NCBI GenBank assembly: GCA_022841475.1
Contig: JALHRJ010000017.1
Location: 1 to 64,000, forward strand
Direction of reading: 5' to 3'
Source: Cyclobacteriaceae bacterium
GTDB lineage: Bacteria; Bacteroidota; Bacteroidia; Cytophagales; Cyclobacteriaceae
Length of the DNA: 64,000 nt
Shown here: in pieces, positions 7,090 through 58,104 of the stretch
Numbering within the stretch: the stretch's first letter is position 1
Layout of the letters: each line of letters starts with the position of its first letter
Translations under genes and position numbers: made by a program
The notes under the pieces: model-generated
What the model was told of the DNA's origin: nothing
The model's input: the letters and a program-made list of their open reading frames with translations, nothing else
Database searches by the model: none

Positions 7090-8571
7090 TTAGTATTTGG
7101 CGGGCGCTCCGGCTGCCGGAGTTGACTTCTTAATAAAATCGCGGATGTGATCGTTGGAAGAAACCAGATCTTCGGCACGTAAATACATCATGTGCCCGCT
7201 GCGATAGCCTTCAAATCGTAAACGATCTTTCATTTTTCCACTTGGGTCAAGTTGCCACATCGAATACTTTGCATCGAAGTAGGTGGTCGCGCCATCGTAA
7301 TAACCACTTTGAATCATCACATTCAAATACGGATTTTCAGCCATGGCCAGCCGCAGGTTCTCGCCCGTGTTGTCATTCGAGTTATCCCAGGGGCGCACAG
7401 GGCCAAACATATTGTATTGTAAATCGGTTTTGTATTTCAGCACATCACGCAAGTAATAATTGATTGCGGGCGTAAAAGAATGTAGCCACGAAGTAAGCTC
7501 CGAATTAAAATCCGGGCTACTGCCCGCTGCCATTTTATCAATGCCTTTGTAACGTGAATCCAATCGACCTACAGTAAAACCCTTATCGCGTAAAAGCTCT
7601 TTCCAGAAATATTGTGTGGGCACGGCCAGGTTGTGGTTCAGAATCACTTCTTCTTTTATACCCGAGTAGCGCGAAGCTTTGGCCGCAATCTCTTTTCGTT
7701 TGGTAGGATCAATAAATCCACCTTTGGATAACGCTGGAATAAATTCATCAATCGTAAACTTTTCAGATTCCGATAGTACCTCGAGTAAATCTTTTTGTTG
7801 CAAGTCGGCCGGAAGGGCTTTGTGATACCAGGCTGCGGCCGTGTAGTACGGTAAAGAAAGCGCATCGTTCACAGGACCATCACGCTTGATTCCGATTTCT
7901 GTAGGCGAAACTAAAATCACACCATTCAAATACATCCAATGATTATTCTGAAGGTCAAGTGCAAGACCCGATACACGCGTTGTTCCGTAACTTTCACCAA
8001 TCAGGTATTTAGCAGACGTCCACCGCCCTATGCGCGAAACAAAGTTATCCAGCCAATCGCCTAAGTATTTGATATCGGCATTCACACCAAAGAAAGTTGA
8101 CTTCTCTGCTTTCGGATCGAGGATGCGCGAGAAGCCTGTGTTAACAGGATCGATGTAAACGATGTCGGCTACATCCAGAATAGAATGCGGATTGTCTTTT
8201 ACTCCGTACGGTTGAACGGGATAACCTTCGCTATCAATATTTAAAACTTTAGGACCGGTATAGGCTACATGCATCCACACTGAAGCTGAGCCTGGGCCAC
8301 CGTTAAACGAAATCACTAATGGTCTGCGACTTTTATCACTTACATCGGTGCGTTCGTAATACGTATAGAAAAGGGCTGCACTTGGTTTGCCTTCCGCATT
8401 CCAAACAGGTTGGGTACCAGCCGTTACTTTATATGGAACAACCTTGCCTTTGATGGTTACCGAAGCCGTTGAGGTTATAGCCGACTCAGCCGTGAGCACT
8501 CTTTCAGATTGAGCGAAGGCAGCCATTGCGCTAATTATTAACACCGATACGAGCAGAATACGTTTGTTCAT
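7090..8571 (-). CDS. S10 family serine carboxypeptidase-like peptidase
   Basis: This exported peptidase has 493 aa from the ATG at 8571, chosen because it begins a clear signal peptide (MNKRILLVSVLIISAMAAFA-Q); an upstream in-frame start would add 27 non-signal residues. S10 features: oxyanion-hole region NGGPGSAS, nucleophile in LIGESYGT (Ser near 193), Asp in GYYDGAT (near 425) and His in SGHMMY (near 460). S10 enzymes remove C-terminal residues, often at acid pH, and this one is probably periplasmic. It appears monocistronic and divergent from the lipoprotein at 8775. Confidence 0.93.
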   Translation of the reverse strand: MNKRILLVSVLIISAMAAFAQSERVLTAESAITSTASVTIKGKVVPYKVTAGTQPVWNAEGKPSAALFYTYYERTDVSDKSRRPLVISFNGGPGSASVWMHVAYTGPKVLNIDSEGYPVQPYGVKDNPHSILDVADIVYIDPVNTGFSRILDPKAEKSTFFGVNADIKYLGDWLDNFVSRIGRWTSAKYLIGESYGTTRVSGLALDLQNNHWMYLNGVILVSPTEIGIKRDGPVNDALSLPYYTAAAWYHKALPADLQQKDLLEVLSESEKFTIDEFIPALSKGGFIDPTKRKEIAAKASRYSGIKEEVILNHNLAVPTQYFWKELLRDKGFTVGRLDSRYKGIDKMAAGSSPDFNSELTSWLHSFTPAINYYLRDVLKYKTDLQYNMFGPVRPWDNSNDNTGENLRLAMAENPYLNVMIQSGYYDGATTYFDAKYSMWQLDPSGKMKDRLRFEGYRSGHMMYLRAEDLVSSNDHIRDFIKKSTPAAGAPAKY

Positions 8572-9291: not shown

Positions 9292-9393
9292 AAAAGTCAT
9301 TAATAAAACGGTGTCATGCCGGGCCTGACCCGGCATCCCTTTATACCTCGAAACTGGATCGCGGCTCAAAGGCCGCGATGACAGAAGACTTTT
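9292..9393. repeat. Dispersed two-hairpin repeat, copy 1
   Basis: A ~102-bp unit bounded by AAAAGTC and GACTTTT. It contains hairpin ATGCCGGGCCTGACCCGGCAT and hairpin TCGCGGCTCAAAGGCCGCGA. A second copy is at 57984-58091 with the same order and nearly the same stems. It sits between the ends of convergent genes (8775-9272 and 9403-10188), where the hairpins could act as a bidirectional terminator or mRNA stabiliser. Confidence 0.85.
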
Positions 9394-42435: not shown

Positions 42436-43422
42436 ATGGAAAAAAAGACTCCCGCTACCATGGCTCCCACAATGGCCCCCACCATGGCTCCTGTGCATAA
42501 GGAAATTCCCGGCAACCCTTCTGTTGCCAAATCGAGCACGCAGAAATTAAATGATCGCTCTAATGGAAAGCCTCTACGTGTGCTCTCTGAAGAGGATTGG
42601 AAATTCTGGATTCACAATGGCTACATCGTAATCAAGAATGCAGTACCCAAAGAAAACTGCGAACGCCTTGCTAAACTGCTTTGGGAGTTTGAAGAAAAAG
42701 ATCCGAACGATCCCTCTACCTGGTATGCACCACCGCGTGCCGAAATGCAAATGAAGGAACTCACCAATACGGGCATGGTGGAAATTTATAATCATCAATA
42801 CCTATGGGATAATCGTTCTGTTCAAAAAGTATATGATGCATTTGTGGATATCTGGGGAACCGAAAAACTTTGGTGCACCATCGATCGTGCTAATCTCAAC
42901 TTTCCGATCCGTCCGGGTTATGAATACAAAGGTTTTATCCATTGGGATTATGATCCGGAAACAAAACCACAAAATGTACAGGGGGTATTGGCGATAGCCG
43001 ATCAAACGGATGAGAACATGGGCGGCTTTCAATGCATACCCGAGTTGTATAGGACGTATGACACGTGGAAGTTAACACAGCCAGCCGACCGCGATTACTT
43101 TAAACCAGATGTAACCGGCTTTGAAAAAGTAAAAGTAAAAATGGAAGCCGGAGATCTGCTGATCTTCAACAGCACAGAACCACACGGCATACGCCCAAAT
43201 AATTCCAAAGATAAAGTGCGCATTGCTCAATACATTTCGATGATGCCTGCGGAAGAAGACAATGAAACCTTGCGTCAATGGAGAATAAACTCGTGGCGCG
43301 ATCGCATTGCTCCTGAAGGTTATGCTTTCCCGGGCGATCCCCGTAAATGGGAACAAACCAAATATAAAACTGCTGAGCTTACACCACTCGGCAAGAAGTT
43401 GTTGGGATTGGAGAAGTGGTGA
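42436..43422 (+). CDS. Phytanoyl-CoA dioxygenase (PhyH) family protein
   Basis: 328-aa Fe(II)/2-oxoglutarate-dependent oxygenase. After a low-complexity N-terminus (TMAPTMAPTMAP, encoded by three 12-bp units) the fold shows HNGYIVIKNAV, the facial-triad HxD in FIHWDYDP, the distal His in STEPHGIRPN and the 2OG-binding Arg region DKVRIAQYIS. It hydroxylates an unknown substrate. Divergent from the AraC regulator, hence probably part of the same catabolic locus. It is followed by a MITE-containing intergenic region. Confidence 0.92.
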   Translation: MEKKTPATMAPTMAPTMAPVHKEIPGNPSVAKSSTQKLNDRSNGKPLRVLSEEDWKFWIHNGYIVIKNAVPKENCERLAKLLWEFEEKDPNDPSTWYAPPRAEMQMKELTNTGMVEIYNHQYLWDNRSVQKVYDAFVDIWGTEKLWCTIDRANLNFPIRPGYEYKGFIHWDYDPETKPQNVQGVLAIADQTDENMGGFQCIPELYRTYDTWKLTQPADRDYFKPDVTGFEKVKVKMEAGDLLIFNSTEPHGIRPNNSKDKVRIAQYISMMPAEEDNETLRQWRINSWRDRIAPEGYAFPGDPRKWEQTKYKTAELTPLGKKLLGLEKW

Positions 43423-43458
43423 GTCTTCTTTAAATTATTCCTCGGTCTGTGTCCTCAC

Positions 43459-43773
43459 CATAGTCGTTAACTTAAGAAATGCATTGGTATTGTGTAAGCT
43501 ATGATTGCCATCTTTGGCCAGGTATTTTATATATCGTCCCTACAGGACTTGAAATGCATAATTTTTCATTTTCTATTACCAACATGTCGTCCCTAACGGG
43601 ACTTGTTTTCGATATTTTGAACTTGTATTTAAAGTCCCTTTAGGGACGACATGTTGGTAATAACCCAATCGAAATAAGTATCAAATCCCTTTAGGGATGA
43701 CATATAGTTTTCCCACTTCAAAGCGTTAACACTAACAACTCATTTCTATCTCATCCTTAAGTTAACGACTATG
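43459..43773. mobile_element. MITE-like element, 315 bp, with 18-bp TIRs and 10-bp target duplication
   Basis: The ends are perfect inverted repeats CATAGTCGTTAACTTAAG (43459-43476) and its complement (43756-43773). Direct 10-bp copies of GTGTCCTCAC flank it (43449-43458, 43774-43783). No ORF of useful length lies inside, so it must be moved by a transposase supplied in trans. Inside are four related short palindromic units around 'GTCCCT...AGGGAC'. The rest of the 43423-43939 gene-free region contains only A/T-rich DNA. Confidence 0.88.
43575..43661. repeat. Internal 30-bp inverted repeat of the MITE
   Basis: 43575-43604 and 43632-43661 are inverted copies (29 of 30 positions agree), each containing the core GTCCCT/AGGGAC. 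Related single units sit at about 43534-43550 and 43684-43702. They would fold into strong stems in RNA or single-stranded DNA. Confidence 0.85.
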
Positions 43774-43939
43774 GTGTCCTCACAGACCGAGCCTTTTTCC
43801 ATTCAATTACGAGTCCTTTGTTTTAACACCGAACGAATTTCTTAAAAGAACAAAACTATTAGGTCTGGCTATGAGCTTGATTACAATCAAAAAAAATTGC
43901 AAAACTTATAATCACTCTATATCTTAAACAATCAAAATT

Positions 43940-44803
43940 TTGGAATCATTGAATCTTCGTATTAGCGTTTTTTTGTGCTTTTTCTTTTTTGCTGCCCTCA
44001 CGGGCAACGGGCAGAGCGAGTTCCTATTTCGTATTCTGGCTGCCAAAGGTACCGTCTGGATTAATGGAAGCCCTGCTAAAGTAGGCGCTTCATTGTTCGA
44101 GGGAGATTCTTTAGAAATTAAATCAGAATCTTATGTTGGACTGGTGCATGGTTCGGGGAAGGCTGTTGAGGTAATGGATGAAGGAACTTATTCCACCTAC
44201 GATTTAGAAAACATGATACCCAAAACTTCTGATCTACTTTTGCGTCTACAAAATAGGCGTCCATCTGTAAAGCCCAACGCGAATGAAGGTATCTATACCC
44301 TTACATCATTCCAACATCCGATATTGTTTTCCAAGGTTACTCTACTCTGGTGCCCTGATACTCTTACAATTAAAGAGTATCGAATCGATATCGAAAACAT
44401 GTTTGACGAAGTATTGACGACCTACGTAACCACGAATACATATTATGAATTGGATTTAACTGATGAAACACTTCAAGGTGAGATGGTTTTGCTCGTTAAA
44501 ATCAAGTCAAACGAACCGAATTCAAAGTTTAAGTCAGCGCAGATCCTGTTAAAGAAAGGAAGTCAGAAAAGTATCGATCAGGAACATGTGCTTGAAGGTA
44601 AACTCAACTCCAATTCAAAAGATCCAAAATACTGGATAGAAATCGGTGATGAATGTGCAAGCAAAAAATTCTTGTATAGTGCCCTTTATGCCTATTATAA
44701 AGCCATGATTACCTCGCACGAAGCAATCTACAGGGATAAGCTTATTGATTTTGTCAAAACAGAGTTTAATGCTGATCCGGATTTTATTCGATGTTTTAAT
44801 TAG
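43940..44803 (+). CDS. Secreted protein with FecR-like domain
   Basis: 287 aa. No ATG is available at the 5' end; TTG 43940 (or TTG 43949) opens a signal peptide (LRISVFLCFFFFAALTGNG-QS). Residues about 30-85 resemble FecR-type domains (AAKGTVWINGSPAKVGASLFEGDSLEI in outline, LVHGSGKAVEV). The rest has a beta-rich domain and a C-terminal helical part (SALYAYYKAMIT). No sigma/anti-sigma partners are near, so a structural envelope role is as likely as signalling. Confidence 0.65.
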   Translation: MESLNLRISVFLCFFFFAALTGNGQSEFLFRILAAKGTVWINGSPAKVGASLFEGDSLEIKSESYVGLVHGSGKAVEVMDEGTYSTYDLENMIPKTSDLLLRLQNRRPSVKPNANEGIYTLTSFQHPILFSKVTLLWCPDTLTIKEYRIDIENMFDEVLTTYVTTNTYYELDLTDETLQGEMVLLVKIKSNEPNSKFKSAQILLKKGSQKSIDQEHVLEGKLNSNSKDPKYWIEIGDECASKKFLYSALYAYYKAMITSHEAIYRDKLIDFVKTEFNADPDFIRCFN

Positions 44804-44826
44804 TCTGGCAATCAGAAAAAAAATAA

Positions 44827-44912
44827 ATGAATCAACTCTATACAACCCTCAACAACGGTATCATCATGCCTTTGCTGGGCTTAGATGTTTATTACATGTA
44901 CAACCGCGAAGC
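44827..44912 (+). pseudogene. 5' remnant of a second aldo/keto reductase gene
   Basis: 86 bp beginning ATG 44827 match the first 86 bp of the intact reductase at 45059 at about 88% identity (10 differences). They encode NQLYTTLNNGIIMPLLGL..., then identity stops abruptly 8 bp before a GGTCTGTG palindrome. The frame continues open for a short distance into unrelated sequence, but no reductase domain remains. Confidence 0.85.
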
Positions 44913-44918
44913 TATGCC

Positions 44919-44950
44919 CTCGGTCTGTGTCCTCACAGACCGGTTTTTTT
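44919..44950 (+). repeat. GGTCTGTG palindrome with T-run (intact copy; terminator-like)
   Basis: The stem CGGTCTGTG (44921-44929) pairs with CACAGACCG (44934-44942) around loop TCCT and is followed by eight T's. This is the intact version of the target into which the MITE inserted. It could act as an intrinsic terminator on the plus strand. Confidence 0.85.
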
Positions 44951-45013
44951 CATTACCTAATTGTCGATTGATATCTCTTAGCATCATGGCAATTAAAATT
45001 TATTTGCCATTAG

Positions 45014-45037
45014 CTGGTCTGTGAGGACACAGACCAG
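45014..45037. repeat. GGTCTGTG palindrome, inverted-loop copy
   Basis: CTGGTCTGTG and CACAGACCAG form a 10-bp stem around loop AGGA. It is identical to the copy at 45901-45924 and lies 21 bp upstream of the intact reductase ATG. Confidence 0.88.
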
Positions 45038-45058
45038 GGAAGAAGAATAAAAATTAGT

Positions 45059-45874
45059 ATGACTCAACTCTATACAACCCTCAACAACAGCATCACCATG
45101 CCCTTGTTGGGATTAGGTGTTTACGACATGTACAACCGCGAAGCGGAAGAGGCTGTTGGCAACGCACTTGAAATTGGCTACCGACTGATCGATACGGCTG
45201 CGATGTATAAAAATGAAACGGAAATCGGCAATGCGATTCGTACAAGTGCCGTTACACGTAAAGAAATTTTTCTTACCACCAAAGTAGCTGATGGTGATCA
45301 GGGTTATGATAACACGTTGCGTGCGTTTGATGAGAGCAGTAGAAAACTCAATTGCGATTACGTAGATCTGTATCTCGTTCATTGGCCGATTAAGAAAACA
45401 CGCAAAGAAACCTGGAAGGCGCTTGAAAAATTGTATGCCGACAAACGCGTGCGCGCCATTGGCGTTGCCAACTACCTGCTTCCGTTTTTGAATGAACTCG
45501 AATCCTATAGCGAGATAACTCCCGCTGTTAATCAGGTAGAGTTTAGTCCATACCTGTTTCTGGAAGACCTGCTGAATGAATGCAACCGAAAAAATATTCA
45601 ATTGCAAGCCTACACACCTCTTGTGCGTGGGCAGAGATTTAGTGATCCTAAACTTATTTCACTTGCCAGTCAGTACGAAAAAACACCGGCACAAATTATC
45701 CTTCGGTGGATGTTACAATTGGGTGTGTCTACGATCCCAAAATCATCGAACATAATTCGACTGAAAGAGAATTTTGATGTGTTTGATTTTCAGATTTCGG
45801 ATAGCGACATGAAGAAGATCAATGCCTTTAATGAAAACTTCAGAGTGGTGGATGATCCGATGATGATGCTGTAA
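45059..45874 (+). CDS. Aldo/keto reductase (2,5-diketogluconate reductase-like)
   Basis: 271-aa cytoplasmic NADPH-dependent reductase. The (beta/alpha)8 AKR tetrad is present: Asp in RLIDTAAMYKN with the catalytic Tyr, Lys in FLTTKVAD and His in YLVHWPI. NADP-binding motifs IPKSSNIIRLKEN and QVEFSPYL are present. The family reduces aldehydes, ketoses or keto-acids. It is bracketed by two identical palindromes (45014 and 45901), with the 5' and 3' ends of a second, lost reductase gene outside them. Confidence 0.94.
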   Translation: MTQLYTTLNNSITMPLLGLGVYDMYNREAEEAVGNALEIGYRLIDTAAMYKNETEIGNAIRTSAVTRKEIFLTTKVADGDQGYDNTLRAFDESSRKLNCDYVDLYLVHWPIKKTRKETWKALEKLYADKRVRAIGVANYLLPFLNELESYSEITPAVNQVEFSPYLFLEDLLNECNRKNIQLQAYTPLVRGQRFSDPKLISLASQYEKTPAQIILRWMLQLGVSTIPKSSNIIRLKENFDVFDFQISDSDMKKINAFNENFRVVDDPMMML

Positions 45875-45900
45875 ATTTTTCTCGCTGGTTTGTAAGGATG

Positions 45901-45924
45901 CTGGTCTGTGAGGACACAGACCAG
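45901..45924. repeat. GGTCTGTG palindrome, copy downstream of the reductase
   Basis: Identical in 24 bp to 45014-45037 (10-bp stem, loop AGGA). It lies 26 bp after the reductase stop and 10 bp before the 3' remnant of the second reductase gene. Confidence 0.88.
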
Positions 45925-45934
45925 CATAAGTGGA

Positions 45935-57970: not shown

Positions 57971-58104
57971 AAGAGGCTGTCTCAAAAGTCAATAATCATC
58001 AACGTTGTCATGCCGGGCTTGACCCGGCATCCCATTTTAACCAGGGAAAAACTGGATCGCGGCTCAAAGGCCGCGATGACACTAGACTTTTGACACCGCC
58101 TCTT
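57971..58104. repeat. Dispersed two-hairpin repeat, copy 2, inside 20-bp inverted ends
   Basis: The inner part (57984-58091) matches the repeat at 9292-9393, with hairpins ATGCCGGGCTTGACCCGGCAT and TCGCGGCTCAAAGGCCGCGA. Here it has longer imperfect inverted ends AAGAGGCTGTCTCAAAAGTC (57971-57990) and GACTTTTGACACCGCCTCTT (58085-58104), followed by more T's. It lies between convergent genes and may work as a bidirectional terminator. Confidence 0.82.

Follow-up and report, generated by a model that had tools for sequence, protein, structure and literature searches.

The locus analysed here raises the question of what has been inserted into a palindrome at positions 43441 to 43791 of the window (the whole 64,000-nucleotide stretch of Cyclobacteriaceae bacterium DNA under study), and of how the inserted element came to select such a target. 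All of the evidence presented below is computational.

The inserted element, which spans 315 bp (43459-43773, no strand assigned), is bounded by perfect 18-bp terminal inverted repeats (TIRs), the left one being CATAGTCGTTAACTTAAG (43459-43476, plus strand) and the right one its inverted copy (43756-43773, minus strand). It is flanked on both sides by a perfect 10-bp direct repeat, GTGTCCTCAC, located at 43449-43458 and 43774-43783 and representing the target site duplication (TSD), which is made up of the TCCT loop and the 3 bp of stem that adjoin it on either side; these coordinates confirm the anatomy described in the first-pass annotation. When up to 3 mismatches are allowed, the TIR has two matches in the window versus 0.05 expected from shuffled sequences, and this expectation together with the combined TIR and TSD anatomy led to the rejection of a chance inverted repeat. 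The element had also been described as devoid of a transposase, which was borne out, as the only open reading frame (ORF) of at least 60 aa extending into it is a 65-aa frame (43307-43504) that enters from the left and is not transposase-like. Its interior is occupied by a unit of four GTCCC-type hairpins, two in each orientation (43525-43710, limits approximate). An Rfam RNA family was rejected as the identity of the element, no match having been obtained at gathering thresholds in the interval 43300-45200.

GTCCC-type units related to this interior are also present on contigs C19 and C41 of the same genome, without an IS4 TIR nearby (best match with 7 mismatches). On C19, a Y1_Tnp gene (L098; 7386-7847, 153 aa), which we take to be IS200-like, lies between hairpins of this same kind (7288-7366 and 7864-8096). 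A second, diverged copy of the element was found on contig C20 of the window's genome (G000:C20); it is 200 bp long, its TIRs have decayed (5 and 2 mismatches), and it possesses its own 10-bp duplication with 1 mismatch inside a decayed REP-like palindrome (stem score 4). One intact and one diverged copy were found in the host genome, and the term MITE is to be taken here in a modest sense.

The sequence interrupted by the element is a REP-like hairpin, the left arm of which (CTCGGTCT) is located at 43441-43448 and the right arm (AGACCGAG) at 43784-43791. Deletion of the element plus one direct repeat generates CTCGGTCTGTG-TCCT-CACAGACCGAG. This sequence is palindromic over 26 bp, as had been noted, its stem being 11 bp long and its loop 4 nt. 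An intact version had further been reported 1.1 kb away (44919-44942); a copy is indeed present there, but it does not extend over the full 26 bp, since 24 of 26 positions match and GT replaces AG, and it is delimited here as a 22-bp palindrome (44921-44942, plus strand) which serves as a within-genome empty-site control. Two further intact copies, absent from the first-pass annotation, occupy 45014-45037 (minus strand), this being the inverted partner of 44921-44942 in a REPIN-like pair, and 45899-45926 (minus strand). Three intact copies of the 20-bp core of the palindrome are present further downstream in the window (at 44922, 45016 and 45903), and strong single-strand folding was obtained for all three (z -5.3 to -7.3). 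Across the genome the core is found at 12 places with up to 2 mismatches, versus 0 for a reversed control pattern, and ten of these are arranged as five inverted pairs, with starts separated by 48-94 bp. The inverted pair in the window (44921-45037) is positioned between a short and a full copy of the start of an ORF, presumably aldo/keto-reductase-like, the first 86 bases of which are duplicated (44827-44912 versus 45059-45144, 88% identical). Another dispersed hairpin pair, ATGCCGGG-N5-CCCGGCAT followed by ATCGCGGC-N6-GCCGCGAT, is present in the window at 9316-9379 and 58010-58077.

On contig C76, a RAYT-like gene (L082; 585-1151, minus strand) has the palindrome on both of its flanks, twice on one (477 and 537) and once on the other (1168). 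The encoded protein matches NF047646 (REP_Tyr_transpos) with an E value of 1.7e-20 and a score of 73.4 bits, which is under the cut-off of 80, and contains the motifs NHLH, WQ and YIHFNP. According to the TnpAREP classification (PMC6006769), subclass 2.6 of Bacteroidetes is associated with atypical structures and with NH[LIV]H, WQ and YIH[QN]NP, a motif row to which the C76 protein is near without being an exact fit. Because the palindrome is dispersed, occurs in inverted pairs and flanks the RAYT-like gene, it is regarded as a REP-like repeat of low copy number; this qualified name was chosen because the usual GT[AG]G foot is missing, neither GTAG nor GTGG having been seen by eye at the hairpin foot of the three C76 copies. 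The C76 gene probably accounts for the movement of the target palindrome. A T-run was seen after the palindromes at 43441/43784, 44921 and C76:537 and was missing after those at 45899, C76:1811 and C76:1878; since three copies are without a T-run, a role as terminator is not general.

Searching with the TIR for an autonomous element with the same ends gave a positive result, in that transposase-bearing elements were retrieved from other genomes. The exact TIR occurs in 40 stretches of the genome_contigs collection, some of which may be fortuitous, since in 257 billion bases an 18-mer should be matched approximately 7.5 times by chance; several of these stretches contain both ends together with an ORF for an IS4-family transposase. 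The window's TIR is carried by the full-length IS4-family elements L053, L067 and L091 (both ends) and L052 (one end, 1 mismatch), whose transposases match NF033592 with E values from 2.6e-49 to 4.8e-58. This model scored above its cut-off in all six transposases scanned, as did PF01609 in all three scanned. The Y-2-R-3-E-6-K motif was identified in 37 of 37 ORFs, and it fails to separate hairpin from non-hairpin elements because it is also present in five non-hairpin comparators and in the distant L266. Within the window's genus, genome G030 contains a 1555-bp element with identical TIRs and a TSD (GTCGGGAGAC) located inside a hairpin, and G025 and G816 harbour further full-length relatives. 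In the window's own genome (a 282-contig draft, 94% complete) a transposase-bearing relative was not found, the first-look candidates having all been scored, and 4 of 9-10 in the wider searches.

The duplication corresponds to approximately one helix turn, being 10 bp in the window and 9-12 bp (the only lengths sought) at other TSD sites, and the window's TIR fits the IS231 end pattern CAT-------AA--TAA---. Table 1 of the IS4-family survey gives CAT-------AA--TAA and direct repeats of 10-12 bp for the IS231 subgroup (PMC2266710). The sharing of the TIR with full-length IS4-family elements in the genus, the 10-bp TSD, the lack of a transposase ORF and the second diverged copy support the classification as a MITE that had been proposed for 43459-43773, a short element with ends common to transposase-bearing ones. 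A sequence search of the PDB returned only Tn5 transposase and a flocculin (E 0.33-0.6). Viral carriers were rejected as well: four stretches of viral_contigs matched a pattern in the comparison with the L052 protein, none of which was confirmed. In genome G1107 a distant IS4-type element (L266-L269) with ends CTTACCTTTACCCACAA has targets which by eye, and uncounted, resemble CTCCCC...GGGGAG hairpins; hairpin targeting may be wider in the IS4 family, because this element appears in such hairpins.

Target choice was analysed in overlapping sets of genomes drawn at the level of order (390), class (395), family (390) and phylum (395), with at most 4 candidates scored per genome. Following the addition of 20 more stretches to the element set, 31 TSD-bearing sites were called by script, TSDs of 9-12 bp only being sought and the longest best match being taken; 30 sites were used for the reconstructed-site tests, L037 (Cellulosilyticum, with a doubtful second TIR) having been left out. 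A single-end test was performed on 60 distinct TIR ends (at most 2 mismatches), 15 of which derive from hand-listed non-Bacteroidota records. A palindromic duplication, defined by pairing of its outer 3 bp with lengths of 9-12 bp tried, was present at 35 of 45 TIR ends versus 73 of 1125 shifted positions, these being located upstream in the same loci, with the two ends of one element and near relatives counted separately. At the non-Bacteroidota ends with the same TIR it was present in 3 of 15 cases.

The complementarity extends beyond the duplication, as the arms outside it pair at 104 of 150 positions across the 30 sites, whereas 10,000 trials with arms re-dealt among sites averaged 49.5 and never exceeded 74. 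When restricted to one site per genome (24 sites), 81 of 120 arm pairs were formed, versus 37.9 upon re-dealing (maximum 59 in 20,000). This complementarity is specific to each site rather than a common consensus, because re-dealing the arms among sites lowers the pairing. Four or five of the five arm pairs are formed at 18 of 30 sites versus 2.1% of 36,351 random positions. All four pair types are encountered, both at column -2 (CG 16, GC 4, TA 4, AT 1) and at TSD position 3 (GC 8, CG 7, AT 4, TA 1). In the subgroup with GT..AC (8 sites), 31 of 40 arm pairs are formed versus 21.7 upon re-dealing, a value reached in 20 of 10,000 trials; the pairing in this subgroup is partly a common consensus, because re-dealt arms already give 21.7 of 40. 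Related IS4-family elements were found at the tips of hairpins of differing sequence in a dozen other Bacteroidota genomes, which suggests that the transposase reads DNA shape or symmetry, not letters.

Next, the length of the duplication was compared with that of the hairpin loop. A clear stem with its axis exactly at the TSD centre is present at 16 of 30 sites (13 genomes), versus 92 of 17,999 random positions, and in 14 of the 16 on-axis sites the duplication equals the loop plus 6. The TSD and loop lengths are 9 and 3 (two sites), 10 and 4 (eight), 11 and 5 (four) or 11 and 9 (two). Two of the eight 10/4 sites (L076 and L218) are perfect palindromes, a loop of 4 being the minimum of the script for an even axis. 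Of the four 11/5 sites, three are copies from the same genome, G971, which consists of a single contig; its four scored copies have a TGCCGCA...TGCGGCA stem in common, with a mismatch in one of them, and an 11-bp duplication each. Among single ends within G025, both the 10-type (GTCTCCCGAC) and the 11-type (GTGTTCTTCAC) were observed. When the axis is allowed to shift by 6 bases, a stem score of 5 is reached at 20 of 30 sites versus 237 of 1795 random positions (2315 of 17,999 in a larger sample).

A number of sites do not fit. The stem score is below 5 at 10 of 30 sites (L229, L004, L136, L222, L062, L139, L259, L261, L044 and L251), and at four more it is at least 5 with the hairpin off axis (L212, L224, L260 and L216), two of which (L260 and L216) by eye also contain a shorter on-axis hairpin. 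By eye, no palindromic arms were seen at L232 and L251, nor at the AT-rich target sites occupied by other IS4-type elements in G1039, G963 and G526, the copies in G963 and G526 having ends that are not cleanly delimited. In a transposase tree with labels set by hand and with the reference IS231, ISH8 and IS4 transposases left out, the five non-hairpin rows group together (95/97), with long branches meeting there, and the on-axis rows do not form one clade. Of the 16 both-ended pairs that lack a direct duplication, five (L052, L067, L138, L219 and L225) have inverted-repeat flanks with a reverse-complemented loop at 0-1 mismatch, and L211 has them with 2 mismatches, where pairs required a TIR match of at least 14/18 and flanks of 10-12 bp were compared; the L052 contig starts 19 bases before the element. 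Such flanks possibly result from recombination between copies, quasi-palindrome correction or misassembly.

Taken from the sequence data, a probability of about three in four is assigned to the reading in which 43459-43773 would be a MITE of the IS4 family, moved by a trans-acting transposase that chooses hairpin tips by symmetry or structure, with its Bacteroidota relatives behaving alike. An IS4-type DDE transposase acting in trans would have moved the element into the tip of the REP-like hairpin, presumably by the cut-and-paste transposition that is a trait of the IS4 family. The two strand joinings would fall 3 bp below the loop, one on each side, so that the loop plus 3+3 bp would be duplicated because of the position of these joinings, and the length of the duplication would track that of the loop. 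The Bacteroidota IS4-family relatives would likewise pick hairpin-forming palindromes by symmetry or structure rather than by a fixed sequence. The first-pass annotation had suggested a transposase preference for secondary structure, and the hairpin targets of differing sequence, the site-specific complementarity of the arms and the loop-tracking duplication length support this suggestion.

The hairpin may have been physically extruded, as a cruciform or a single-strand hairpin, at the time of attack; the alternative is a bent symmetric duplex. The general view of DDE transposases is that they cleave B-form DNA and that the enzyme itself sets the stagger. It is tentatively proposed, at somewhat less than even odds, that one group of Bacteroidota DDE transposases from the IS4 family has an extruded hairpin or cruciform as its true target. 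In this proposal the two element ends would be joined to the 5' sides of the two opposed hairpins, each 3 bp below the loop, and the length of the duplication would be set by the target (loop + 6), not by the stagger of the enzyme.

The alternative that survives best, albeit as an unlikely one, is that the transposase reads a symmetric duplex sequence, for example GTS-N4/5-SAC at the duplication edges, the palindromic arms being incidental and REP copies supplying many such sites at tolerated places between genes. A symmetric consensus is known for IS231A, whose target is GGG-N5-CCC. GT..AC at the duplication edges is common to many sites with the window's TIR, and at least 4 arm pairs are formed by 15 of the 132 GTSN4-5SAC matches counted as background over the window and the site loci, REP copies and insertion flanks included; insertion specificity is also reported for several IS4 groups (PMC2266710). 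Against a duplex consensus stand the loss of most of the pairing when arms are re-dealt among sites, the palindromic character of sites whose edges are GC..GC, CC..GG or GA..TC, and the tracking of loop length by duplication length at most on-axis sites.

Improbable to a marginally greater degree is guidance of the elements by a REP-bound host protein or by REP processing (RAYT cleavage, gyrase or stalled forks), not by the hairpin itself. Apart from the RAYT-like gene flanked by the window's palindrome, this explanation can draw on the binding of REPs by IHF, DNA polymerase I and gyrase (PMC6006769). The target was examined as a dispersed repeat in two cases, namely the window's palindrome and the GTTGGT type, and GTTGGT-N6/7-ACCAAC hairpins exceed the control in 10 of 13 genomes of the genus (17 versus 0 in G030, 19 versus 1 in G816), yet not in G031 (3 versus 3), G811 (4 versus 7) and G808 (0 versus 1). 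The stems, however, vary between genomes, whereas the joining point is constant at 3 bp below the loop at most on-axis sites. Finally, that 43459-43773 is a composite REP/BIME-like array with fortuitous terminal inverted repeats is highly improbable, for although its interior four-hairpin unit is also dispersed without TIRs, a pure REP array is contradicted by the perfect TSD and by perfect TIRs that transposase-bearing elements have in identical form, and the rebuilt palindrome and the second copy, which has a TSD of its own (1 mismatch), likewise stand against it.

Targets which retain complementarity but not letters, together with duplications that track the loop, provide a natural test of structure-guided target choice. 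In addition, one mobile element (IS or MITE) would use another mobile repeat, the RAYT-linked REP-like hairpins, as a landing pad.

Among known systems, the MIC231 mobile cassettes of Bacillus cereus have IS231-type ends, lack a transposase and carry passenger genes. The window's element resembles these cassettes in having ends that fit the IS231 pattern and no transposase, and differs in that its interior consists of non-coding hairpins, not passenger genes. Within the literature surveyed (titles and abstract openings, mainly open-access), no account of these Bacteroidota elements was found. The IS4 family, as described by De Palmenaer et al. 2008 (PMC2266710), has the YREK motif, a DDE transposase and duplications of approximately 10 bp, all of which are shared by the present elements; unlike the family at large, their targets retain complementarity and not letters. 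A remark on arm specificity in PMC2266710 fits wider hairpin targeting in the IS4 family, as does ISRm22 of Sinorhizobium meliloti. Nine copies of this IS4-family element, all in one genome and with direct repeats of 6 bp, lie within REP elements at the axis of palindromy (Tobes and Pareja 2006, PMC1525189), whereas the present elements involve many hosts, many hairpin sequences, duplications of 9-12 bp and a MITE derivative. The targets of IS1272 (IS1182 family) are inverted repeats of unrelated sequence; this element, from an IS family different from that of the present elements, replaces the stem-loop and leaves no duplication (Wan et al. 2017, PMC5678879). In the hypothetical pathway c of the same paper the loop is duplicated, and the present sites are similar to that outcome, shifted by 3 bp (PMC5678879). 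ISRm22, with its REP axis, and IS1272, with its inverted-repeat targets, are precedents for the present elements.
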